DNA of 43,069 nt from a virus: positions 1 to 43,069 of IMG/VR virus record IMGVR_UViG_3300027833_000091; one strand, 5' to 3'. The notes beneath the pieces were generated by a model, which ran no database searches, was not told the DNA's origin, and was given only the letters and a program-made list of their open reading frames with translations. How positions within the stretch are numbered: position 1 is the first letter of the stretch; each line of letters opens with the position of its first letter. Positions 710 to 29,393 of this stretch are shown here, piece by piece. The translations under genes and the position numbers were made by a program.

Positions 710-2005
710 ATGTCAAAAATAAAAGTCGGCATCGTAGGTGTCGGATCATGTGCTAAATCCCTAGTGGAAGGCATTCAATACTACAACGAAAACCCAGAAG
801 ATAAGATTGGTCTTATGTACGAAGATATTGGTGGATATAAAGTCCATGATATTGAGTTTGTTCTAGGGTTTGATATTGATAAAAGAAAAGTCAATAAAAA
901 ACTGGCAGAAGCTTTACGAGCTAAGCCAAATTGCGCAATGGATCATGTAGATCAAATTTATACGAATGGTGAATCAAACGTTTCGTGTATTGCTGATGGA
1001 GCTAGTGTATACTCTGCTCCTGAACTAGATGGCATTGCTCCTCATATGCATGAGTATCCAGATGAAGTAACTTTCGTTAATGGTGCTCAACCAGCAGAAT
1101 CTTTTGATCGTACTGTAGAGTTACTTAAGTACCACAATGTAGATGTTTTAGTTAACTACCTACCAGTTGGTTCAGAAGAAGCTTCAAAGTATTGGGTTGA
1201 TGTTGCATTAGCAGCTGAAGTTCACTTTGTTAATTGTATTCCTACTTTAATTTCAACTGAAGATGCAGTACATACTGAACAAAGATTTATCGATAAAGGT
1301 TTATCAATTGTTGGATCTGATATGAGATCAGCTTGGGGAGCCTCAAGAATGTCTGAAGTACTTCAAGGTGCTATGCTAGATTCTGGACTTATGGTTACAC
1401 AACATATTCAAATGAATATGGCTGCTGGATCAACTCAAGGCCAAGAACATATTAGAACTGGTCGTACAGCTAATACTGATTTCTTAAACATGGCTAAAGA
1501 GTATCGTTTAAAAAATAAACATGTATCTAAAGAAAATGTTCTTAAAGGTCAAAACATTGTAAGAGACGAAAGTACTGCAGGTATGACACTTTATGCTGGA
1601 CCATCATTAACTGTTTTACAAAAACCAGGTGGTGATTATATCCCTTCAGATAATAAAATTGCAAACTTTGATATGGTTGCTTATGGATTTGCTGGAGCTC
1701 GTTACGAAATGTCAGCAAGACTTTCTGTACAAGATTCACCAAACTCTGGTGGAGTAGTTGTTTCAGCTATTCGTTTCTGTAAGGTAGCTTCTGAAATGGG
1801 TATTGTAGGTTTCCTAAGAGGTCCATCAGCTTGGACACAAAAGACACCACCAGTTCAGCTAAAAACTCAAGATGCTAAGTTCGAATGTGATGCTTTAGCA
1901 AGACGTGTGATTACTCCAATGACTGAACCTCAGTTAAAAGAGAATCGTCCTAAAGCAAAAGACCTTCCACACACTTTCCAATCAGGAGAAAACGACTATG
2001 TCTAA
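710..2005 (+). CDS. ino1: myo-inositol-1-phosphate synthase
   Basis: NAD-dependent isomerase turning glucose-6-phosphate into inositol-1(3)-phosphate. The 431-residue protein has an N-terminal nucleotide-binding stretch (VGIVGVGSCAKSLVEG, residues 6-21), a central NYLPVGSEEASKYW block near residue 149, a VGSDMRSAWGASR block near 201, and the family motif DSPNSGGVVVSAIRF at 342-356. Length and motif order fit the shorter bacterial/archaeal INO1 type. A strong ribosome site (AAAGGAG) sits 7 bases before the ATG. It opens a block of five overlapping genes (HAD phosphatase, DNA-modification-like proteins, C5-methyltransferase homologue). That context suggests the inositol serves a special purpose rather than ordinary lipid synthesis (inference). 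Such an enzyme in a phage is unusual. Confidence 0.92.
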   Translation: MSKIKVGIVGVGSCAKSLVEGIQYYNENPEDKIGLMYEDIGGYKVHDIEFVLGFDIDKRKVNKKLAEALRAKPNCAMDHVDQIYTNGESNVSCIADGASVYSAPELDGIAPHMHEYPDEVTFVNGAQPAESFDRTVELLKYHNVDVLVNYLPVGSEEASKYWVDVALAAEVHFVNCIPTLISTEDAVHTEQRFIDKGLSIVGSDMRSAWGASRMSEVLQGAMLDSGLMVTQHIQMNMAAGSTQGQEHIRTGRTANTDFLNMAKEYRLKNKHVSKENVLKGQNIVRDESTAGMTLYAGPSLTVLQKPGGDYIPSDNKIANFDMVAYGFAGARYEMSARLSVQDSPNSGGVVVSAIRFCKVASEMGIVGFLRGPSAWTQKTPPVQLKTQDAKFECDALARRVITPMTEPQLKENRPKAKDLPHTFQSGENDYV

Positions 2006-2387
2006 AGTATTAGTTAACACTTTTGATATTGATGGTGTGATATACTTCGGGGAAGAGCATTATGGCGTAAGACCCTGTGACATGGATATTATTGTCACAG
2101 GGCGGTCGTTCGAACAAAGAGAAGAAACAGAAAAAATGTTAGAATCTCGTGGCATATATAATAGAGTAATGTATAATCCATTGAAGAGATCAGATCCAGC
2201 ATATAGCCGTGAAGCTTCTGGTAAACATAAAGCTGAAACAATCCAAGAACTTGAAAATTTGCATGATTATAAAATTGGAATGCATTTTGAAGATGATCCA
2301 ATTCAAATAGCTGAAATTAAAAAGCTTCATCCTAATCTTAATATTATTCACTTAGTGAGAGAAAGCGAGGAACATGTCAAGTACTAA
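1998..2387 (+). CDS. HAD-superfamily phosphatase
   Basis: A compact 129-residue HAD protein with all four motifs: nucleophile/acid pair in FDIDG (D10, D12), motif II in VTGR (T34), motif III lysine in SGKHK (K76 or K78), and the metal-binding EDD (98-100). It has essentially no cap domain, so it could act on a bulky substrate or a polymer end. It overlaps the inositol-phosphate synthase gene by 8 bases and the next gene by 14. A plausible but unproven role is dephosphorylating inositol phosphate or a sugar-phosphate intermediate of the same pathway. Confidence 0.8.
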   Translation: MSKVLVNTFDIDGVIYFGEEHYGVRPCDMDIIVTGRSFEQREETEKMLESRGIYNRVMYNPLKRSDPAYSREASGKHKAETIQELENLHDYKIGMHFEDDPIQIAEIKKLHPNLNIIHLVRESEEHVKY

Positions 2388-3435
2388 TTTATGGAAACAC
2401 GTTGATCAAAAAGTAGCAGATGATATCTCTTATTTTTGGAAGCGTGTTATAGAAGGTTTTGATTTTAGAGCTGGATTGAATGACTCCTTTAATGGAGATG
2501 ATCCAGCTATTCAATGGAATACCGAATATTTTGGTCCTAATGTAACTATGGACGATCGTCTAAGATACATGGCAGAAAATATTTCTACGAATAAAGAAAT
2601 GTCTGACGAAAATAGAGTGCTTAATTTTGTAATCACTCACTTTTATGGAGGTAGAGACTGCCATAGAATCTTAAATGCTGAACTAGATCCTAGAAAAGCA
2701 TATACTGATTTTGAAAGAGTTTTAATTGATCCAGAATATCTGGAACAAATTAGATCTAATTTAGATAGAGCAAAAGGATTAGGATATTCTATTTGGTCTA
2801 GAACAGAGTTACATACCTCTCTTATGGGTGCATCTAACAAATTTGCTAGAGAAATTCATGGCCATCCAACTCATGCTGTTAACATGATTAGTTGGTTAGC
2901 TGATTGGTTAGTAGATGGAACTGTAGATAAAATCCTTCATTGTAGATCTTTAAAAGAATGCTGTGAAGTACTACTTTCAAAAGAAGGTATTGGTCCTTAC
3001 TATGGATATCATGGAGCAACTGACCAATCAACAAATCCTAAATTAAATTTTACTCATGATGAAGCATTTGTGTTACCTGGCCCAGGATGCCAATTTACAT
3101 TAAAAATGCTATTTCCAACATTGAGTAATAAAGAGTGTTCTCCAGGTAACCAAGTAGTATGGGTTAGAGAGAACCAAGAAAAATTATTCGGTAAAATATA
3201 CTTTAACGAATATTGGCACAACATAAACGTAGATGGTAAGAATGTGTATACATTCCCACAAAGCGAATTGACATGTTATAGCGCTGAAGTAGCTTTATGT
3301 CAATATGGAGTATATTGCGATATGAAAAAGAATACATCAAGAATTGAAAAAAGACAAATTTCTAATACTGATGTAACCTCAATCGTAGAAGCTTTACAAC
3401 ATCAGCCATCATCAATAGAAGATTTTTTAATATGA
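2374..3435 (+). CDS. DNA-hypermodification protein, 5-hmdU DNA kinase helical-domain-like
   Basis: This 353-residue protein resembles the helical domain of 5-hydroxymethyl-dU DNA kinases, a group also described as alpha-glutamyl/putrescinyl-thymine pyrophosphorylases in phages with hypermodified thymine. Supporting stretches are the aromatic N-terminus with YFWKRV, a GYSIWSRTELHTSL block near residue 140, and GIGPYYGYHGATD followed by FVLPGPGC near residues 210-240, which looks like a helix-hairpin-helix DNA-binding core. No P-loop is visible, so the kinase half is missing or supplied by another protein. It overlaps both neighbours and sits between a HAD phosphatase and an SGNH-like protein. 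The family call comes from memory of motif patterns and is moderate. Confidence 0.6.
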   Translation: MSSTNLWKHVDQKVADDISYFWKRVIEGFDFRAGLNDSFNGDDPAIQWNTEYFGPNVTMDDRLRYMAENISTNKEMSDENRVLNFVITHFYGGRDCHRILNAELDPRKAYTDFERVLIDPEYLEQIRSNLDRAKGLGYSIWSRTELHTSLMGASNKFAREIHGHPTHAVNMISWLADWLVDGTVDKILHCRSLKECCEVLLSKEGIGPYYGYHGATDQSTNPKLNFTHDEAFVLPGPGCQFTLKMLFPTLSNKECSPGNQVVWVRENQEKLFGKIYFNEYWHNINVDGKNVYTFPQSELTCYSAEVALCQYGVYCDMKKNTSRIEKRQISNTDVTSIVEALQHQPSSIEDFLI

Positions 3436-4433
3436 GAAATATAATAAATTGTCCGTTCATACCTATAGCTAAAAGACCTGGATCTCATCGTGGTGCTCAA
3501 GGTGTAATATATGGCGATATGATAAAGGAGAAATATGGAAACTGCGACATCAATTATGGTGGAGAAATTGAAGATCACAATGATTATGATGTTCTTTGGG
3601 TTTATCATGGGAGTGACTGGTCTGGTGGCATTAATATGTTTGGTGGGGTCTATGGCTTTCCATATGTTAAAAACACTGTTAACTTTTCTAAGTTCAAAGG
3701 TAAAGTTTATTCAATTGGAATGGACTTTCCACCGTATCACCAACAGCTTCAATCAAAACTTGAATCTGCTAAGAAAGAGGTACAACCCGAATGGAATGAT
3801 GTGGATATCGAAAATCTTGAACGCATGTTCAACGAAGCTGTCAGAGTCGATTACCCAAATAAAACAAAAAATCTAATAGCTGGCGATTCGCATTCAATAT
3901 GTATGTATCGTCCAGGTTGGACAGTAAATAGTGTTCCGTTTAAAACGTTAAATGGCGCACTTAATGAAGGCCTTGAATCTTTTATTCAAATAGAAACCGA
4001 AGGACCGGTAGAATTCTATTTTGGTAACATAGATATTAGGCATCATGTATGTAGGTTGGAAGGCGGTTGGGAGAAGAACGTAAAAGATCTTGCTGAACGA
4101 TATGTAACGGAGGTGAATAACTTATCTGTTCCAGGTCGAATTTACGAACTTCTCCCAATCGAGAATGAGTCTAGAAAAATACCAAAATCTGGTTTTTATA
4201 ATAAACAACCCTTCCATGGCACTTGGGAAGAGCGTAATAATGCTCGAAAGTTATTTAACGAAATTATTCATGATTCTGGTTTAGGAATTAAATGGACAAA
4301 TTATCTATTAAATAAAAAAGGAGAATTGGATTTTGATTATATGGAAAAACCACAATCAATCCATTTATCTAGAGAGTACTATCCATATTGGACTGGTATA
4401 GAAGAAACAAATACACTTGAGGAATTTTTTTAA
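3432..4433 (+). CDS. SGNH-like protein of unknown function
   Basis: A 333-residue protein without clear full-length relatives known to me. The segment LIAGDSHSICMYR (residues 148-160) resembles SGNH block I with S153 as possible nucleophile. GNIDIRHH (199-206) resembles block III, and a late histidine in PQSIHLS (about 311) could complete a catalytic set. SGNH proteins are esterases or acyltransferases, so acylation or deacylation of a DNA adduct or sugar is possible but speculative. It overlaps the preceding gene by 4 bases, and its stop lies just before the ATG of the methyltransferase homologue. The N-terminal 140 residues are unassigned. Confidence 0.5.
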   Translation: MRNIINCPFIPIAKRPGSHRGAQGVIYGDMIKEKYGNCDINYGGEIEDHNDYDVLWVYHGSDWSGGINMFGGVYGFPYVKNTVNFSKFKGKVYSIGMDFPPYHQQLQSKLESAKKEVQPEWNDVDIENLERMFNEAVRVDYPNKTKNLIAGDSHSICMYRPGWTVNSVPFKTLNGALNEGLESFIQIETEGPVEFYFGNIDIRHHVCRLEGGWEKNVKDLAERYVTEVNNLSVPGRIYELLPIENESRKIPKSGFYNKQPFHGTWEERNNARKLFNEIIHDSGLGIKWTNYLLNKKGELDFDYMEKPQSIHLSREYYPYWTGIEETNTLEEFF

Positions 4434-4434
4434 T

Positions 4435-5625
4435 ATGAATACATGGGCAAGCATAGTTCCATTGATTGGTGGAGAAACCATCGCAATGGAAAACGTTTTT
4501 AAAACAAAACCAAAATATTTTTTAACTTTTGATGGCTTTCAAGCTAATGAAGAGCATTTAAGAAATTATTATAATAATGAAATTCCATATTTGAATCTCT
4601 CACAAGGAGAGAAACATACTGAAAGTGTTGATGTAGTTAATACTGTATGTCCTTGTGCAGGTCTAAGTTCTCTTAGTCCACAAGCTGCAAGTAACAGTCC
4701 AATGAACGATTGGATGATTAAATCTGCTGAATATGTTTTAAGTGAAGTACAACCAAGAGTTTTCTGGGGAGAAAATGCTCCAAGACTAGCATCTAAAATG
4801 GGTGAACCAGTTGTACGAAGATTAAGAAAGATTGGTGAAGCCAATGGGTATACATTCAGTATATACAAAACTAAATCTCTATTGCACGGTTTAAGCCAAG
4901 TAAGAGATCGTACATTTTATTTCTTTTGGAAAGGTGATAGAGTACCTTTGATGGAATATGTAGATTTAAAACCATCAACAATTGCAGATGATATTAGAGC
5001 TGTTCATGAAGATGCTAATGATCCTATGAGTATGATTCTAACTAATGACAAAATACCATCTGAAGAACCATACTATAGATATATTTTAGAAGAACTAGAA
5101 GGCGGTATTACTCACGCTCAGTTTGCGTCAAAGATTACTAAATCAGTTGGTCTACAAGATTATATTGAAGAAAGAACAAATTATAAAGTCGTTGCTAAAT
5201 GGATGCGAGAAAAGGGGTATGATACTGTTGCAAAGAAATGTGATAGGCAATACCATAAACTCAAAGCAGGTGGCAATATTATGAGAAAAGGTGTAGAAAT
5301 ACCTAAAGATAAAATTGGTGCTTTTGTTGGTCATATGCCAACAAACCTAACTCATCCAGACGAAGACAGATTTTTAACCGTAAGAGAAGCTTTATCAATT
5401 ATGAAGCTTCCTACTGATTTTGAACTCTTAAATCCTAAGAGATCTCTTAATCATATATGTCAAAATGTTCCAGTTACTACTGCCGAACATCCAGCTCGAA
5501 TGGTTAAAAAATATCTAGCAGGTCAATTAGATCTAATAGATACAGATTTCTTGGTACAAGATAACAAGAAAAAAACCTATGAATATGAAAAAAGTCCTTT
5601 ACAATTGGACCAATTTATGTTATAA
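4435..5625 (+). CDS. C5-cytosine methyltransferase homologue, divergent
   Basis: A 396-residue relative of DNA C5-methyltransferases. In order it shows a degenerate AdoMet loop (SIVPLIGGE, residues 6-14), the catalytic PC pair in VCPCAGLSS (71-79), an EN motif (GENAPRL, 112-118), QVRDR (155-159), a motif IX-like RFLTVREAL near 312 and a motif X-like NVPVTTAEHPARM near 343. The catalytic Cys and Glu are kept, but the usual FAGxGG and PPCQ wording is not. It may methylate DNA or act on a modified pyrimidine. The ATG here follows GAGGA by 11 bases; an in-frame TTG 18 bases upstream is less likely. It is last in the overlapping cassette. Confidence 0.8.
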   Translation: MNTWASIVPLIGGETIAMENVFKTKPKYFLTFDGFQANEEHLRNYYNNEIPYLNLSQGEKHTESVDVVNTVCPCAGLSSLSPQAASNSPMNDWMIKSAEYVLSEVQPRVFWGENAPRLASKMGEPVVRRLRKIGEANGYTFSIYKTKSLLHGLSQVRDRTFYFFWKGDRVPLMEYVDLKPSTIADDIRAVHEDANDPMSMILTNDKIPSEEPYYRYILEELEGGITHAQFASKITKSVGLQDYIEERTNYKVVAKWMREKGYDTVAKKCDRQYHKLKAGGNIMRKGVEIPKDKIGAFVGHMPTNLTHPDEDRFLTVREALSIMKLPTDFELLNPKRSLNHICQNVPVTTAEHPARMVKKYLAGQLDLIDTDFLVQDNKKKTYEYEKSPLQLDQFML

Positions 5626-5651: not shown

Positions 5652-6161
5652 ATGTTAAATGTAAATCAAAAATTTCCAGGTTTTATGCTCAATGGTATAA
5701 ATTCTGAAAATCAAATAGTTCAAGTAAAATCAGGTGATCTGACTGGATCTTGGGCTGTAATTTATTTCTATCCAAAAGACTTCACCTTTATTTGTCCAAC
5801 TGAAATCAGTGAAATGGACAAATTGTGTGATGAAGCTATTGTGATGGGAGTTTCTGGTGATAATGAGTATTGCAAACTCAACTGGAAAATGTCTAATGAA
5901 CTTATTGGTTCAATTAAACACACACTTGCTGCAGATTGTGGATTAGTATTAGCTAGTTCATGTGAAGTAGTTAATATGGAACATTTCGTATCTGAAAGAG
6001 CTACGTTTATTATGAATCCTGAAGGTATTATTCAGCATGTATCAATGAATGCTATGGATACTGGAAGAGATGTTAATGAACTGTTAAGAACAATTCAGGC
6101 ACTCAAGGCAGGCGGTTTGACTGGCTGTGGTTGGGAACCGGGAGATCAGTTCGTTGCCTAG
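5652..6161 (+). CDS. peroxiredoxin (AhpC/TSA family)
   Basis: Thiol peroxidase reducing hydrogen or organic peroxides. The 169-residue thioredoxin-fold protein has the peroxidatic cysteine C48 in DFTFICPTE and a likely resolving cysteine C159 in GCGWEPG, as in typical 2-Cys AhpC-type enzymes. It starts after a GGAG ribosome site and directly follows an early-type promoter, so it is probably made early. It may protect the infected, respiring host from oxidative damage. Its end overlaps the S21 gene start. Family confident; physiological role inferred. Confidence 0.92.
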
Positions 6162-6417
6162 TATAGATTTAAGACCAAAGAAGAATAGGAATCCTAAAGA
6201 TAAGAGACCACCTAGGGAAATGCCTTTTGATGTAGCTTTAAGAAAATTTAAAAAAGCATGTGAAAGAGCTGGTATTATACAAGAGGTAAGACGTAGAGAA
6301 TTCTATGAAAAACCAACAGCTAAAAGAAAACGAAAAAAAGCAGAAGCGATTTCACGCACTCGAAAGCAAGAAAGATCAATGCAATTAGGACCAGATAGGT
6401 CTAGGAGAATAAGATAA
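6154..6417 (+). CDS. rpsU: ribosomal protein bS21
   Basis: Small-subunit ribosomal protein that sits near the 3' end of 16S rRNA and the Shine-Dalgarno helix. The 87-residue product contains the family core from [17 protein letters not shown] through [18 protein letters not shown], then a basic tail; the 20 or so residues before the core are an extra basic arm. I chose the TTG that overlaps the peroxiredoxin stop because GGAG lies 9 bases before it; a GTG 27 bases upstream is possible. A phage S21 could compete with the host protein and bias initiation toward phage mRNAs (inference). Confidence 0.9.
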
Positions 6418-14837: not shown

Positions 14838-15087
14838 GCCATATACTGATCGAGAAAACATTAGGCTATTTAATGTTGGAGACGATCAGCAAGAATATGT
14901 ATGGCATCGTGACAAACAAAATAGAGAAATAGAAGTGTTAGAAGGACAAGCATGGCAGTTACAATATAACGGATGTTTGCCAATACTTCTCGAGGAAAAT
15001 AATACTTATTACATACCAAAGATGATGTACCATAGACTCATTAAAGGATATAATAACTTAAAGGTAAAAATAAATGTTAAGCTTTAA
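14815..15087 (+). CDS. cupin-like small protein
   Basis: About 90 residues, starting at one of two adjacent GTG codons within the end of the previous gene. The sequence YVWHRDKQNREIEVLEG, then WQLQYNGCLPILL, YYIPKMMYHRLIKG and LKVKI, has the beta-strand rhythm and spaced His/Glu of a small cupin barrel. A substrate cannot be proposed. Confidence 0.6.
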   Translation: MVEIISGKPYTDRENIRLFNVGDDQQEYVWHRDKQNREIEVLEGQAWQLQYNGCLPILLEENNTYYIPKMMYHRLIKGYNNLKVKINVKL

Positions 15088-16318
15088 AAGAAAACTCATA
15101 ACAGAGGCCGCAGCTAAGAATACTCATATGAAGCATATTGAGGACTTGGTATTAGACGGTGGAGTTAAGGGGGCCCGCCAGGCTATCCTCGCATTACGAG
15201 CACTTAGGGATATGCTTTCCGGTAACGCAAAGGTACCAGTAGACGTTACGGTCAAGTGGGACGGGGCCCCCGCCATATTTGCAGGATTAGATCCAAGCGA
15301 TGGTAAATTTTTCGTTGCTAAAAAGGGTATCTTCAATGCTAATCCAAAAGTATACAAATCTCATGAAGATATTAAAGCTGACACTTCTGGTGATTTATCT
15401 TCAAAGTTAATAAAAGCGTTTGATAACTTAAAAGATCTAGGTATAACAGGAGTTATACAAGGTGATTTTATGTTCGACAAATCAGATGTTAAAACGGAGA
15501 CAATCAATGGAATTAAACATATTACTTTCCACCCTAATACTATTGTTTATGCTGTACCTGTCGGTACGCCACTAGCTAAAGAAATAACTAAAGCTGATAT
15601 TGGTATTGTATGGCATACTGGATATGATGGTGCTACATTTGAAACAATGAGAGCAGAGTTTGGTAAAGAAATTGTTCCTAAACTTAAAAAGACTTCTAAG
15701 GTATGGCAAGTAGATGCAACATTACCAGATTTATCTGGAACAGCCACTATGACAGCTAAAGAAACTGAAGCAGTCACTAAAGGATTATCCGAAGCCGGTA
15801 AAATATTTAAAAAAATTGCAGCTTCAACTCTTAAAGAAATTGAATCTGATGAAGAATTAAACTTATTAATCAATACATATAATAATACCAAGGTCAGAAA
15901 AAATGAGCGTATAACAAATACAACAGCTCATGTAAAAGGTATGATTGATTGGGTCAATGAAAGATATAATAAACAAGCTGATAAGAGATCTTCAGTTAAA
16001 GGAAAAGCTACAATTGAAGCTAAAAGAGAAAGAGTTCTTACATTTTTTAGCTCATCTAATCAAAAAAAATTGAAATTAGTGTTCGATTTGCAGAATTTTA
16101 TTGTAGATAGCAAATTAATTATTATAAATAAACTAAACAGTCTCAACAAAATTGGGACGTTTGTAAAGACTAAATCCGGATTTAAAGTAACCAACCCCGA
16201 AGGTTTTGTTGCTATAGATCGTATGGAAGGTGGAGCAGTTAAACTTGTTGACAGATTAGAATTTTCTGCCAATAACTTTAGCAAAGATATAATAAAAGGT
16301 TGGGAAAATCCTAACTGA
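15074..16318 (+). CDS. ligase-superfamily-like nucleotidyltransferase with leader tag
   Basis: A 414-residue late protein starting MLSFKRKLITEAAAK (LITE|A fits the prohead protease site). It carries motifs ordered as in covalent nucleotidyltransferases (ATP/NAD ligases, capping enzymes): KWDG (K61-G64) as motif I, a QGDFMF block (129-134), EGFVAIDR (376-383) resembling motif IV and VKLVDR (389-394) resembling motif V. A long insert separates the middle and last motifs. I recall relatives in marine T4-type phages annotated only as unknown. The first 30-70 codons lie in a GC-rich island. Ligase-type function is an inference. Confidence 0.65.
   Translation: MLSFKRKLITEAAAKNTHMKHIEDLVLDGGVKGARQAILALRALRDMLSGNAKVPVDVTVKWDGAPAIFAGLDPSDGKFFVAKKGIFNANPKVYKSHEDIKADTSGDLSSKLIKAFDNLKDLGITGVIQGDFMFDKSDVKTETINGIKHITFHPNTIVYAVPVGTPLAKEITKADIGIVWHTGYDGATFETMRAEFGKEIVPKLKKTSKVWQVDATLPDLSGTATMTAKETEAVTKGLSEAGKIFKKIAASTLKEIESDEELNLLINTYNNTKVRKNERITNTTAHVKGMIDWVNERYNKQADKRSSVKGKATIEAKRERVLTFFSSSNQKKLKLVFDLQNFIVDSKLIIINKLNSLNKIGTFVKTKSGFKVTNPEGFVAIDRMEGGAVKLVDRLEFSANNFSKDIIKGWENPN
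15161..15290 (+). other. GC-rich island inside a coding region
   Basis: By hand count 73 of these 130 bases are G or C, in a genome that is roughly one-third GC. It contains two near-palindromic runs, AAGGGGGCCCGCC and ACGGGGCCCCCGCC, and codons avoided by neighbouring genes. The reading frame continues through it and includes the KWDG motif. The cause is unknown. Confidence 0.8.
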
Positions 16319-23519: not shown

Positions 23520-25811
23520 ATGAACGGAATAAATACATCAATGATACACGTCACCAAAAGAGATGGAACAGTACAAACATTTGACTTGGACAAGATCCAC
23601 AAAGTATTGGAGTGGGCTACTCAAGACATAACAAACGTATCTCAATCAGAGATAGAATTAAGATCAAATATTCAATTATATGATAAAATCCCAGCTTATG
23701 ATATTCATGAGTTGTTGATTAAAAGCGCCTCAGAACTTATTTCAGAACACACACCCAACTATCAATTTGTAGCAGCTAGGCTTATTTCATATAAGCTACG
23801 TAAAGAAGTATATGGTCAATATGATCCATTGCCTTTAATTGACGTTGTTAAAAAGAATATTGATTTAGGTGTATATGATCCAGAAATTTTATCATATTAT
23901 AATGATGAAGAATTAAATGAATTAAATAGTTACATTAAGCATGCAAGGGATAATACCTTCACATATGCCGGCATGGAACAATTTAGAGGTAAGTACTTAG
24001 TACAAGACCGAAGAACTAAACAATGTTACGAGACTCCACAAATATTATATATGATGGTCTCAGCAACATTGTTTGCAAAAGAAACCACAAATAGATTATC
24101 ATGGGTAAAACATTATTATGACGCAATTAGTCAATTTTATATCTCGTTGCCGACGCCTATTATGGCTGGAGTACGAACGCCTACTCGCCAATTTTCGTCT
24201 TGTGTACTTATTGAATCCGGAGATAGTCTGGACTCTATCAATGCTACTAGTACTAGTATTGTTAAGTACATAAGCAAAAAGGCAGGAATAGGTATTGGAG
24301 CTGGTTCGATCAGAGCAGCTGGAGCAAGAGTTGGAGATGGTTCAGTAGTTCATACTGGACTTATTCCATTCCTTAAATATTTTCAATCTGCAGTAAAATC
24401 ATGTTCTCAAGGTGGAGTTCGTGGTGGAGCAGCAACAGTTTATTTACCTGTATGGCATTATGAATTTGAAGATTTAGTAGTCCTTAAAAATAACAAAGGT
24501 ACTGAAGAAAATAGAGTTCGTCATATGGATTATGCATTTCAGTTTAATAAACTAATGTATGAACGTTTAATTAGTGGAGGGGATATTACCTTCTTTGATC
24601 CACATGATGTGCCTGGACTATATGATGCTTTCTTTTCAGACCAAGAAAAGTTTAAAGAACTATACGAAAAGTATGAAAGAGCATATAGTATTAGAAAGAA
24701 ATCAAAGCCAGCATTAGAAGTTTTCCAATCAATTCTTACAGAAAGAAAAGATACTGGAAGGATCTATATCATGAATGTCGATCACGCTAACGAACATGGA
24801 GCATTTGATGTAAAGAAAGCTCCAATTCGTATGAGTAATCTATGTTGTGAAATTGATTTACCAACAAAGCCATTAGAGTCATACGATGATGAGAATGGTG
24901 AAATTTCTTTGTGTACTCTATCAGCCATTAATTGGGGATTGATAGATAGTCCTAAAGACTTTGAAAAATATTGTACTTTATCAGTAAGAGCATTAGATAA
25001 CTTATTAGATTACCAAGAATATCCAATTAAAGCAGCTGAAAAAGCTACTATGAATCGTAGACCATTGGGTATAGGTATTATCAACCTAGCGTATTTCCTT
25101 GCTAAAAGAGGATTAAAGTATAACGAACAAGCTCATGAAATTATAGATGAGTACGCAGAAGCATGGTCTTATTACTTAATTAAAGCTTCTATGGAATTAT
25201 CTGAAGAAAAAGGTGCATGTTGGCTGTCAGATGAGACAAAATATGCATCTGGAAAACTGCCAAATGATACATATAAAGGTGCAGTAGATAATTTAGTGAA
25301 GCGTAAATCTACACTACCGTGGGACACGCTGCGAAGCGCTCTAGTAGAACATGGTATAAGAAATTCTACGTTAATGGCATTAATGCCTGCAGAAACATCT
25401 GCACAAATTAGTAATAGTACAAATGGTATTGAACCTCCTAGAGCTTTAGTATCATACAAACAATCTAAGGACGGAGTCATGGCACAAGTAGTGCCTGGCT
25501 ATCATCACCTTAAAAATAAGTATGACTTATTGTGGGATCAAAAATCTCCAGAAGGTTATCTTAAAATTTGTGCTATTCTTCAGAAATATATAGATCAGGG
25601 GATTAGTGTTAATACCTCTTATAATCCAGAGCACTTTGAAGATAATAAAGTACCTATGTCTCTAATGATTAAAGACTTAGTGATGTCATATCAATTTGGA
25701 TTAAAGCAACTATACTATTTCAATACACACGACCAGTCAGATGATATGAAGGAAGAACCTTTAGCACTGTCTGATATCGATGACGAAGATTGCGAGAGTT
25801 GTAAAATTTGA
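23520..25811 (+). CDS. nrdA: ribonucleotide reductase class Ia, large subunit
   Basis: Reduces NDPs to dNDPs with NrdB. The 763-residue protein has an N-terminal ATP-cone (VTKRDGTVQTFDLDKI), the substrate-site cysteine in FSSCVLIE, the catalytic region NLCCEIDLPT, the partner cysteine in ISLCTLSAINWG, the loop MPAETSAQISNSTNGIEPP and a C-terminal redox pair (CESC, 4th to last position region). An ATG 21 bases downstream (MIHVTKRDG) is an alternative start with a longer leader. The active-site and C-terminal cysteines are all present, so it should be functional. Confidence 0.97.
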   Translation: MNGINTSMIHVTKRDGTVQTFDLDKIHKVLEWATQDITNVSQSEIELRSNIQLYDKIPAYDIHELLIKSASELISEHTPNYQFVAARLISYKLRKEVYGQYDPLPLIDVVKKNIDLGVYDPEILSYYNDEELNELNSYIKHARDNTFTYAGMEQFRGKYLVQDRRTKQCYETPQILYMMVSATLFAKETTNRLSWVKHYYDAISQFYISLPTPIMAGVRTPTRQFSSCVLIESGDSLDSINATSTSIVKYISKKAGIGIGAGSIRAAGARVGDGSVVHTGLIPFLKYFQSAVKSCSQGGVRGGAATVYLPVWHYEFEDLVVLKNNKGTEENRVRHMDYAFQFNKLMYERLISGGDITFFDPHDVPGLYDAFFSDQEKFKELYEKYERAYSIRKKSKPALEVFQSILTERKDTGRIYIMNVDHANEHGAFDVKKAPIRMSNLCCEIDLPTKPLESYDDENGEISLCTLSAINWGLIDSPKDFEKYCTLSVRALDNLLDYQEYPIKAAEKATMNRRPLGIGIINLAYFLAKRGLKYNEQAHEIIDEYAEAWSYYLIKASMELSEEKGACWLSDETKYASGKLPNDTYKGAVDNLVKRKSTLPWDTLRSALVEHGIRNSTLMALMPAETSAQISNSTNGIEPPRALVSYKQSKDGVMAQVVPGYHHLKNKYDLLWDQKSPEGYLKICAILQKYIDQGISVNTSYNPEHFEDNKVPMSLMIKDLVMSYQFGLKQLYYFNTHDQSDDMKEEPLALSDIDDEDCESCKI

Positions 25812-27826: not shown

Positions 27827-28261
27827 ATGACTTGGTTATATGAAGGCAAACCATATACATTACCAGATGATTTTACTACAGATGATTATTACGGTTTTGT
27901 ATATCTAATTACAAATAGAGCAACTGCTAAAAAATATATTGGCAAGAAATTCTTTTGGTCTAAAAAAACCCTACCTAAAACTAAAACTCGTAAAAGAAGA
28001 AAGATCACTTACGTTGAATCAGATTGGAAATCATATTATGGATCTAATCGAGTTTTAAATGAAGAAAGAGAAAAGGCTGGTGATGATATATATCATAGAC
28101 AAATTCTCCATTTATGTAAGACTAAAGGCGAATGCGCATATATGGAAGCAAAAGAGCAGTTTGAACGTGAAGTTCTTTTAACTGATGAATACTATAATGG
28201 AATCATTAGTTGTAAAATTGGTGGACAAAGCATAAAAGGTTTAAAGAAAGATAATGGATAA
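27827..28261 (+). CDS. GIY-YIG-type nuclease-like protein
   Basis: A 144-residue protein with a GIY-YIG-like core: YGFVYLITN and KKYIGKK near residues 22-41. Later come a Lys/Arg-rich stretch, a conserved E in YMEAKEQ and N in EYYNGI, which could be the catalytic glutamate and asparagine. It may be a free-standing homing or DNA-processing endonuclease as in T4 seg genes, or a domesticated conserved phage protein. A degenerate late-promoter-like GAATAAATA lies just upstream. Activity not certain. Confidence 0.68.
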
Positions 28262-29393
28262 AAGAATACAACACATTTTAAACAACGAACAAATCCGACA
28301 AGATAGTACTATTGAGTTGATAGCAAGTGAAAATTTTGCTAGCAAAGCTGTAATGGAATTATCTGGAAGCATTTTCACAAATAAATATGCTGAAGGCTAT
28401 CCTGGAAGAAGATATTATAATGGATGTCAAGAAGCAGATAATATTGAACAACTTGCTATCGATACTGTGTGTAAGTTATTTAGTTCTAAATTTGCTAATG
28501 TACAACCACACTCTGGAGCTAATGCTAATCTTGCAGTAATGAAAGCCTTCTTAAATGTTGGTGATACTATTCTTGGTATGGATTTAGCAAGCGGTGGTCA
28601 TTTAACTCATGGAGCTCCAGTTACGATTTCAGGTAAATGGTTTAATGCTCACACCTATGGTGTTGATGAAAATGGTTTAATTGATTACGATGAAGTCGAA
28701 AGATTGGCACAAGAACATAAACCTAAAATGTTAATCGCAGGTGCCTCTGCATATCCAAGACAAATTGATTGGGAAAGAATGAAATATATTGCTATGTCAG
28801 TTGAAGCTTACTTAATGGTTGATATGGCTCACTATTCAGGTTTGATTGCTGGTGGTGTATATGATAGTCCTGTACCTTATGCTGATGTAGTGACTTCAAC
28901 AACTCATAAAACACTTCGTGGACCAAGAGGTGGTATTATACTATGGAACAATCCGGATTATACAAGAAAGCTCAATGGAGCAATCTTTCCCGGTTCACAG
29001 GGTGGTCCATTAATGCATATCATTGCCGCTAAAGCTCAATGCTTTATTGAAGCCGACACAAATGAATTTATAGAATATTCAAGTAACGTTGTAAATAATG
29101 CTAAAGCTATGTGTAAAGTCTTTGAAGATCGTGGATTTTCGGTTCTTACCGGTGGTACTGATAGTCATATTATTTTAATGGATTTAAGTAATAGTAAATA
29201 TAGCGGTAGAGAAGCAGCAGATTTATTAGAAGATAATGGTATTACCGTCAATAAAAATGGTGTACCAAATGACCCACGTAGTTTTATGGAAACAAGTGGT
29301 ATTCGTATTGGAACTGCAGCAGAAACTACTAAAGGGCATGGTACTCAATTTTTTACAGATCTCGCAAATAAAATATGTAATATATTGAAATAA
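28254..29393 (+). CDS. glyA: serine hydroxymethyltransferase
   Basis: PLP enzyme transferring the serine hydroxymethyl group to tetrahydrofolate. The 379-residue protein is somewhat shorter than bacterial GlyA (about 415-420), mainly at the C-terminus. Motifs: [49 protein letters not shown] and the PLP lysine K219 in [14 protein letters not shown]. Together with ThyX it makes a cofactor cycle for thymidylate synthesis. Related PLP enzymes occur in thymine hypermodification pathways, but this one looks like a standard SHMT. Confidence 0.95.

Follow-up and report, generated by a model that had tools for sequence, protein, structure and literature searches.

DNA hypermodification is already known from phages. 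In the T4-type system, gp42 acts together with alpha- and beta-glucosyltransferases, and arabinosylation takes place in RB69. Thymidine hypermodification (phages M6, ViI, phiW-14 and PaMx11) proceeds through a 5-hydroxymethyldeoxyuridine (5-hmdU) DNA kinase and then aGPT-PPlase/PUGT enzymes or an amino acid:DNA transferase, and in TET/JBP phage systems 5-methylcytosine or thymine is oxidised and then glycosylated. Further classes are 7-deazaguanine modification (QueC, QueD, QueE, DpdA) and 5-carbamoyloxymethylcytosine, found by MetaGPA, whose main text describes genes for thymidylate synthase and deaminase lying close to those for modification and does not mention inositol (PMC8670742). The system considered here is a five-gene cassette at positions 710–5625 of IMG/VR record IMGVR_UViG_3300027833_000091, a 43,069-base fragment (the window) from a marine phage, regarded as T4-like because of the UvsX and DnaB-type helicase genes that follow the cassette. 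It is very probably a DNA-modification cassette, and the comparison with related viral loci tips the balance towards a reading in which DNA containing 5-hydroxymethylcytosine (hmC) would be hypermodified with inositol after replication.

The cassette genes 1 to 5 are labelled MIPS, HAD, HEL, SGNH and MTL, and related loci are grouped into type A (HEL or SGNH present, as in the window), type B (TET or ADDT) and type Q (MIPS-HAD-QueC). With the T4-type system the loci of relatives share a gp42-type enzyme with a dCMP-specific Asp, a deaminase beside the cassette and the likely addition of a polyhydroxy six-carbon group; the differences are that no glucosyltransferase family is present in the cassette, that the inositol donor would come from MIPS-HAD, and that the transferase would be HMUDK_hel/PUGT-like with an SGNH partner. 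The thymidine systems share the HMUDK_hel domain of HEL and the PUGT fold (8z2n), and module B has a P-loop kinase and ADDT, which has distant relatives among the proteins of Det7 and other Salmonella phages; in the cassette, by contrast, the base would be hmC and not hmU, the nucleophile a cyclitol and not an amino acid, and no P-loop kinase was found in module A. The link to TET/JBP systems is module B, in which MIPS-HAD follow TET and ADDT, and Caulobacter phage Cr30 has a TAGT/alpha-glucosyltransferase-like gene, whereas TET was not found in the window or in 18 of the 20 records searched, the two matches being module B. The 7-deazaguanine module is likewise not in the window, although MIPS-HAD-QueC occurs in five loci, Stenotrophomonas Menderavirus included. 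The MetaGPA system (PMC8670742, main text) is similar in that hmC derives from a thymidylate-synthase homologue, with a co-located transferase and deaminase genes nearby, but uses a carbamoyltransferase where the cassette has an inositol pathway.

All five open reading frames (ORFs) are on the + strand: MIPS of phage type at 710–2005, a small HAD-family phosphatase at 1998–2387, HEL at 2374–3435, SGNH at 3432–4433 and MTL at 4435–5625. Neighbours overlap by 8, 14 and 4 bases, and the final junction is a gap of 1 base, the ATG of MTL at 4435 standing directly after the SGNH stop, with a TTG at 4417 as alternative start. The tight packing described in the sequence-only reading was borne out by these coordinates, and the recurrence of the genes, which it had offered as a check, was found as well: the order MIPS-HAD-HEL-SGNH-MTL returned in most viral contigs fetched. 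Sixty-two non-redundant type A loci extend 4.5 kb or more downstream of MIPS; of these, HEL was present in 62, HAD and SGNH in 61 each and MTL in 53; the counts for HEL and SGNH are partly due to the definition of the type, those for HAD and MTL are not.

Scans with five queries, together with further look-ups, gave 264 loci, 240 of them with MIPS and 156 after removal of copies identical in the central 500 bases. The counts come from metagenomic contigs picked out by short peptide patterns, which under-samples distant forms, and de-duplication by identical MIPS cores leaves near-identical strains separate, for which the MIPS tree serves as a guard. Within 6 kb of MIPS in the 156 loci, HAD (which adjoins MIPS) was found in 142, HEL in 104, SGNH in 94, gp42 and the deaminase in 70 each, MTL in 68, ADDT in 34, a P-loop kinase of 180 residues in 30 and TET/JBP in 28, all lower bounds, since many contigs are short. 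By type, 105 loci were A, 34 B and 17 others. Where at least 3 kb was present on both sides, every one of 62 non-redundant MIPS loci had a DNA-modification neighbour, namely HEL/SGNH (43), TET/ADDT/kinase (14, the P-loop kinase also counting as type B here) or QueC-type 7-deazaguanine genes (5); the two MIPS loci without a recognisable neighbour were both cut off on one side. Neither HEL nor gp42 was ever found with TET or ADDT in the 156 loci, with an exception from a later scan, L281 and L283, which hold ADDT plus HMUDK_hel (L281:7182–8066, 1.7e-27) beside MIPS-HAD. This hybrid locus (L281:1662–9870) encodes a P-loop protein, a thymidylate-synthase homologue, a phrog_842 alpha-glucosyltransferase-like protein, ADDT, HMUDK_hel, MIPS and HAD, an arrangement also seen in L279, L280, L282 and L283.

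Type B has the order TET-ADDT-MIPS-HAD-kinase, with TET in 24 of 25 loci holding 2.8 kb upstream and the kinase in 13 of 14 holding 4.5 kb downstream. Type Q (L071, L145, L166, L173 and L194) is found in Menderavirus and three metagenomic loci and spans four MIPS lineages; one of the metagenomic loci, L173, also has a QueD-type PTPS gene. In phage Ps15, the MIPS gene (84,315–85,517) lies inside the queuosine cluster that its authors place at 83,414–88,940, although for them MIPS was simply one of the genes resembling bacterial ones (PMC9025141). Other orders encountered were SGNH-MIPS-HAD-HEL, SGNH-HAD-MIPS-FkbM-HEL, TET-ADDT-MIPS-HAD and MIPS-HAD-QueC. FkbM methyltransferase and GT4 glycosyltransferase genes occur in both modules A and B, and as these enzymes act on hydroxyls, they fit a polyol with further hydroxyls to decorate. 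The recurrence of MIPS-HAD beside two further unrelated modification modules gives strong support to the inositol part of the earlier interpretation, and the 62 of 62 MIPS loci with a modification neighbour are the strongest evidence for inositol.

The MIPS tree was built from 34 representatives of clusters at 85% identity (20 A, 10 B and 4 Q, one unlabelled representative being excluded). The types were found to be intermixed, with 12 label changes among the 34 rows, and the well-supported branches alone force at least 7 changes for A, 5 for B and 4 for Q; Cr30 (B) and L165 (A) are sisters, the Cr30 branch being long. This intermixing suggests that the link between MIPS and DNA modification arose repeatedly, and simple co-inheritance is excluded as its explanation as far as the sequences tell. 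The reverse test gave the same association: MIPS was found beside every one of 28 non-redundant close relatives of SGNH whose contigs reach 4 kb or more upstream (from 73 loci, 49 non-redundant) and in all 19 loci from the ADDT scan.

The product of the first gene was placed by profile in the inositol-phosphate synthase family, as had been claimed (PF01658, Inos-1-P_synth, 2.4e-8, 34.6 bits against a cut-off of 27; phrog_33138, 4.2e-111). NCBIfam mycothiol_INO1 was matched at 6.9e-57, yet under its equivalog cut-off, and the nearest solved relative is M. tuberculosis INO1 (1gr0, 1.7e-48). Residues D204, D257, K316, D342 and K378 are invariant in all 129 aligned viral MIPS, as are the positions matching D197, K284, D310 and K346 of 1gr0, presumably its catalytic residues. 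In gene 2, all four HAD motifs (DxD, T/S, K, DD) are present, so that the assignment as a HAD phosphatase stands; D10, D12, T34-G35-R36, K78, D99 and D100 are kept in at least 97% of 113 sequences, and the best family match is the polynucleotide kinase phrog_415 (7.3e-10). Given its place next to MIPS, HAD is a probable inositol-phosphate phosphatase, and the chain from glucose 6-phosphate to inositol phosphate to inositol proposed for the first two genes is plausible as a small-molecule supply.

Free inositol could also be made for a solute, a lipid or a surface sugar, with host glucose 6-phosphate being drained and only HEL, SGNH and MTL modifying DNA, from another donor. That SGNH, the hydroxymethylase and MTL function in MIPS-free phages agrees with such a division; but a solute or lipid role predicts none of the re-association of MIPS-HAD with three modification modules, and MIPS-HAD lie between hydroxymethylase and transferase in one overlapping gene set, which makes this explanation rather unlikely. 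It is also unlikely that the adduct keeps its phosphate or is another cyclitol, inositol phosphate being moved to hmC as a phosphodiester or phosphomonoester while HAD acts elsewhere, for example in freeing phosphate from the base. HAD is indeed nearest to the phosphatase part of polynucleotide kinase, a nucleic-acid phosphatase and not a known inositol monophosphatase, and 6k96 shows the MIPS family to be able to make five-membered cyclitols; on the other side, HAD accompanies MIPS in each of the three kinds of module, which fits a shared pathway step, and the sodium:sugar symporter of Aeromonas phage 44RR suggests a free, unphosphorylated polyol.

For the acceptor base, the evidence points with good confidence to hmC. 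In relatives, a T4 gp42-type dCMP hydroxymethylase and then a dCMP deaminase stand just upstream of MIPS, gp42 at a distance of 0.5–2.2 kb and in 46 of the 60 type A loci whose contigs extend 2.8 kb or more in that direction; a PF07659 protein ('nucleotide modification associated domain 1') precedes gp42. The best PDB match of gp42 was 1b49 (3.3e-66), while the highest-ranking thymidylate synthase reached 4.3e-12. At the position ...GYxND, where the exchange of Asn for Asp is taken to set dUMP/dCMP specificity, Asp was found in 101 of 103 ORFs of relatives, a set that is not de-duplicated; the two Asn exceptions are separate thymidylate synthases of two Aeromonas phages, and PDB entries 6l18 and 6a9a have Asn there in the alignment. 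A full-length deaminase homologue (L015:7119–7649) directly follows gp42, and the window begins with the same gene, truncated at its 5' end by the contig end (49–345, + strand; PF00383, 1.3e-12; phrog_174, 4.1e-21); the enzyme would supply or balance the pyrimidine pool. The absence of gp42 from the 43-kb window is explained by the contig starting inside the deaminase gene, the next gene, and gp42 of the window phage is inferred to lie beyond the contig end. The sequence-only reading had named the C5-methyltransferase homologue in a setting where pyrimidine-C5 enzymes are combined with small-molecule donors; the C5 hydroxymethyl is most likely made not by that homologue but by the gp42-type hydroxymethylase upstream. 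The window also encodes a serine hydroxymethyltransferase (28254–29393; PF00464, 1.4e-146), which could feed methylene-tetrahydrofolate to a dCMP hydroxymethylase.

The candidate transferase is HEL, which matched PF18723 (HMUDK_hel) at 1.3e-16 (61.3 bits, curated cut-off 25), so that the likeness to the helical domain of 5-hmdU kinases was upheld and no unrelated family intervened. AlphaFold2 models of SGNH and HEL were built on 33 and 35 viral homologues, respectively, that of HEL reaching a pLDDT of 89. Its best PDB match in both Foldseek and VIA-align was 8z2n, the 5-PmdU glycinyltransferase of phage PaMx11, an enzyme reportedly described by Wen et al. 2024; OGG1-type glycosylases rank after it. 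The match is moderate (VIA Z 11.3, below 13 for a helical protein, rmsd 3.8, 226 residues aligned; Foldseek 0.052, an E value above 0.001, probability 0.98). According to the PDB title, a small nucleophile is moved by the 8z2n family onto the 5-methylene carbon of the base, and HEL is, from its modelled fold, the likely DNA transferase of the cassette. A stretch resembling E-x-x-x-C-x-[FY], common by eye to HEL, ADDT, F397 and F328, is a lead only. PDB sequence searches with SGNH, HEL, MTL, phrog_10773 and the P-loop kinase gave nothing significant.

The product of gene 4 matched no Pfam family above cut-off. Its AlphaFold2 model (pLDDT 86) resembles the carbohydrate esterase 7toh (VIA Z 13.5, rmsd 2.9, 169 residues) and, in Foldseek, 2hsj (6e-5), the matches being carbohydrate esterases and PAF-acetylhydrolases, so that the SGNH-like character foreseen for it held and no unrelated family was indicated. 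S153 (the nucleophile Ser), D201, H205, E305 and H311 (the His) are invariant across 84 sequences, among them those of Aeromonas phages and of loci lacking MIPS, and N199 is kept in 83. The DxxH of block V is lacking, 82 of the 84 sequences having K, Q, R or H three places before the His; hydrolase activity is thus not to be assumed, and the invariant Glu six residues before the His might stand in for the missing Asp. A natural SGNH-HEL fusion, found in Aeromonas phages 44RR (L147:8001–10388) and avDM14, suggests that SGNH partners HEL. T4 beta-glucosyltransferase was tried as an identity for gene 4 and rejected, the Pfam (0.028) and PHROG (0.081) matches being below threshold and the predicted fold being SGNH; beyond these matches, no alpha- or beta-glucosyltransferase family member was found in the cassette. 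Among the structure matches listed for SGNH none is a beta-glucosyltransferase, which alone excludes nothing.

It is accordingly very unlikely that an ordinary sugar is attached by SGNH or HEL as a cryptic glycosyltransferase, with MIPS as a passenger. Those weak matches would fit it, as would the UDP-galactopyranose mutase gene that adjoins SGNH in phage 25 and its group, but the predicted fold and invariant residues of SGNH and the helical, PUGT-like character of HEL speak against glycosyltransferases, and the active site of MIPS, conserved in 129 of 129, against a passenger.

MTL is a divergent DNA C5-methyltransferase homologue, matching PF00145 above cut-off (1.1e-13), in agreement with the earlier assignment. 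C74, E113, Q155, R157 and R159 are invariant in 53 of 53 sequences, C74 being presumably the Cys of the PC motif, E113 the Glu of ENV and R157/R159 the Arg residues of QxRxR; motif I reads VPLIGG instead of the standard FxGxGG, and NCBIfam dcm scored 31 bits against a cut-off of 100.65. MTL is missing from 9 of the 62 type A loci that reach 4.5 kb or more downstream, and PF00145 was not found in the complete records of 44RR, avDM14 and phage 25. MTL is therefore probably an accessory, to judge by its distribution; as founding enzyme it was rejected, gp42 supplying hmC in relatives and the Aeromonas phages with SGNH-HEL having no PF00145.

Several relatives carry parts of the cassette in other company. 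In 44RR2.8t (L147:6408–10388), a vSGLT-type sugar/polyol symporter is followed by the SGNH-HEL fusion (ORF233c), and the two also adjoin in avDM14. Phage 25 (L148:3776–7047) has UDP-galactopyranose mutase, a 358-residue protein and SGNH in a row, SGNH there being without HEL; the mutase of this group (PF03275, 5e-54) was matched in some 21 Aeromonas-type records among those listed, and phage 25 possibly has a galactofuranose modification of hmC. Petrov et al. reported in 2010 that Aeromonas phages 44RR, 31 and 25 have gene 42 without a glucosyltransferase, and posed the question whether hmC is modified in some other way in phages of this sort (PMC2993671). Sequence-based candidates are the SGNH-HEL fusion with the symporter in 44RR and 31, and SGNH together with UDP-galactopyranose mutase in phage 25. 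A further gene set (L287:4743–9095, L288:5945–9032, L295:1081–4880) consists of gp42, the two protein families F397 and F328, a threonine-dehydratase-like PLP enzyme and SGNH, with no MIPS; it is probably another, amino-acid-based hmC modification. MTL without MIPS was found in L287 and L289. The more distant SGNH proteins thus occur without MIPS in the contexts of PLP enzyme, galactofuranose mutase and symporter, and SGNH and MTL are not inositol-specific parts, which corrects the earlier interpretation; judged from these gene contexts, they belong to hmC modification generally, and MIPS-HAD is an exchangeable donor part. In Cr30, a gene annotated as SNF2 (L146:4706–6034) is actually a TET/JBP dioxygenase (PF12851, 8.4e-21), near which lie ADDT, the TAGT/alpha-glucosyltransferase-like gene, MIPS, HAD and the P-loop kinase; Cr30 is predicted to carry hypermodified DNA, and its target may be thymine, since the complete genome has no PF00145 gene and its sole thymidylate-synthase homologue has Asn.

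In the proposed pathway, gp42-type hydroxymethylase, on the gene content of relatives, would make hm-dCMP before replication, to be polymerised into DNA. MIPS would convert host glucose 6-phosphate into inositol 3-phosphate, from which HAD would release myo-inositol, families and active sites being evident and substrates putative. HEL would flip out hmC and join an inositol hydroxyl to the 5-methylene, giving 5-(inositolyl-oxymethyl)cytosine, as its fold and genomic context suggest. SGNH, in complex with HEL, could either activate the hydroxymethyl group (for example as an ester) or acylate or deacylate the attached polyol, the partnership being drawn from the natural fusion and from the link of SGNH to the hydroxymethylase with other donors. 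The two roles are about equally probable: SGNH is the first candidate for activation because module A lacks the kinase and SGNH is fused to HEL in 44RR, and its occurrence in phage 25, where HEL is lacking and a nucleotide-sugar gene is its neighbour, suggests decoration or editing. C5-methyltransferases expel the hydroxyl of hmC in vitro, and MTL, which keeps the cytosine-attacking Cys, Glu and Arg, could help to expel it through a C6 adduct. MIPS-HAD would thus be a portable donor module, plugged into TET/ADDT/kinase or 7-deazaguanine modules in other phages. Of the overall interpretation first offered, the hypermodification cassette, the gene families and the supply role stood, whereas the origin of the C5 hydroxymethyl and the specificity of SGNH and MTL did not. 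That inositol itself is attached to DNA is, on the gene families and their contexts, judged somewhat better than an even chance.

Several observations weigh against this pathway. In the known route, 5-hydroxymethyl-uracil is activated by phosphorylation, as stated in the relevant part of PMC6449724. Profile A6, run on 14 records, found the P-loop kinase only in Cr30 and G009 (module B) and in none of the module A records covered, the complete 44RR and avDM14 among them; with no leaving-group kinase found there, activation of hmC is unexplained. PF18751 gave no match in 13 records but also misses the Cr30 kinase, so that this test is invalid. MTL is absent from 44RR as well as from the nine type A loci mentioned above, and gp42 is absent upstream in 14 of the 60. 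Profile comparisons of HEL with the ADDT, F397 and F328 families revealed no significant similarity. The relatives of MIPS include the five-membered cyclitol-phosphate synthase 6k96 (2.6e-24), which leaves the product ring unproven. The symporter of 44RR has as its nearest relative a glucose/galactose transporter and not an inositol transporter, and 44RR and phage 25 have no MIPS in the stretches examined. Finally, in the L288-type set, for which nine input loci were chosen beforehand by the analyst, MIPS was lacking from all 29 loci that reach 4.5 kb or more upstream, 25 having gp42 and 26 the PLP enzyme. Plain co-inheritance, after a single capture of MIPS into a hot spot for nucleotide metabolism in T4-like phages, is highly improbable. 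Although the order gp42-dCD-MIPS-...-UvsX-DnaB is largely fixed in the marine clade, the modules are of three kinds, the MIPS tree has at least 12 changes of label and gene orders differ; where MIPS is flanked by 3 kb or more on each side, it was never seen far from modification genes.

Other genes of the window were also recorded. Between deaminase and MIPS lies a small predicted membrane protein, DUF6552 (338–637, + strand; PF20189, 3.2e-15), which holds this position in many relatives as well. Immediately 3' of the cassette, an AhpC/TSA peroxiredoxin (5652–6161, 4.2e-21) occurs only in close relatives of the window, and a conserved small basic ORF (6127–6417), bS21-like by eye, stands between it and UvsX. 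Both ribonucleotide reductase subunits are encoded (23520–25811, PF02867; 25968–27041, PF00268), as is a DUF6267 protein (15074–16318, 2.3e-100), whose family is also represented in the TET-type locus L077 (13783–15006).

The literature search returned no paper linking inositol to phage DNA, subscription papers and preprints being largely uncovered, so that absence is not proven; the accessible portion of the pelagimyophage paper does not mention inositol (PMC7029224). What would be new is the inositol donor, a kinase-free HMUDK_hel/PUGT-type transferase acting on hmC, and the SGNH partner. Mass spectrometry alone, the detection test first suggested, would not suffice, as the calculated shift of an inositol ether (+162.053) equals that of a hexose (the phosphate form giving +242.019); on hm-dC an inositol ether would have a calculated mass of 419.154 ([M+H]+ 420.161) and its O-methyl form 433.170, and inositol-bearing bases may therefore already stand recorded as hexosylated DNA. 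A dozen or more cultured phages are directly testable, among them 44RR, 25, Cr30 and IME-SM1, and new enzyme families would become available for DNA-engineering and restriction research. More tentatively, at a little under even chances, inositol may be a general decorating group of phage DNA, one portable MIPS-HAD pair feeding at least three unrelated chemistries: HEL/SGNH would act on hmC, kinase and ADDT on a TET-oxidised base (in Cr30 probably thymine), and the third would concern 7-deazaguanine, with O-methylation or glycosylation following in some cases. If inositol is indeed attached, the known DNA decorations (glucose, arabinose, amino acids, polyamines and carbamoyl) would be extended by a cyclitol, and the question raised by Petrov et al. 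in 2010 on hmC modification in 44RR, 31 and 25 would have a possible answer. The phage would be expected to gain by escaping restriction and further defences directed at DNA; the bond would be an ether to a free polyol and not a glycosidic bond from a UDP-sugar, and glycosidases and known defences may fail on it.

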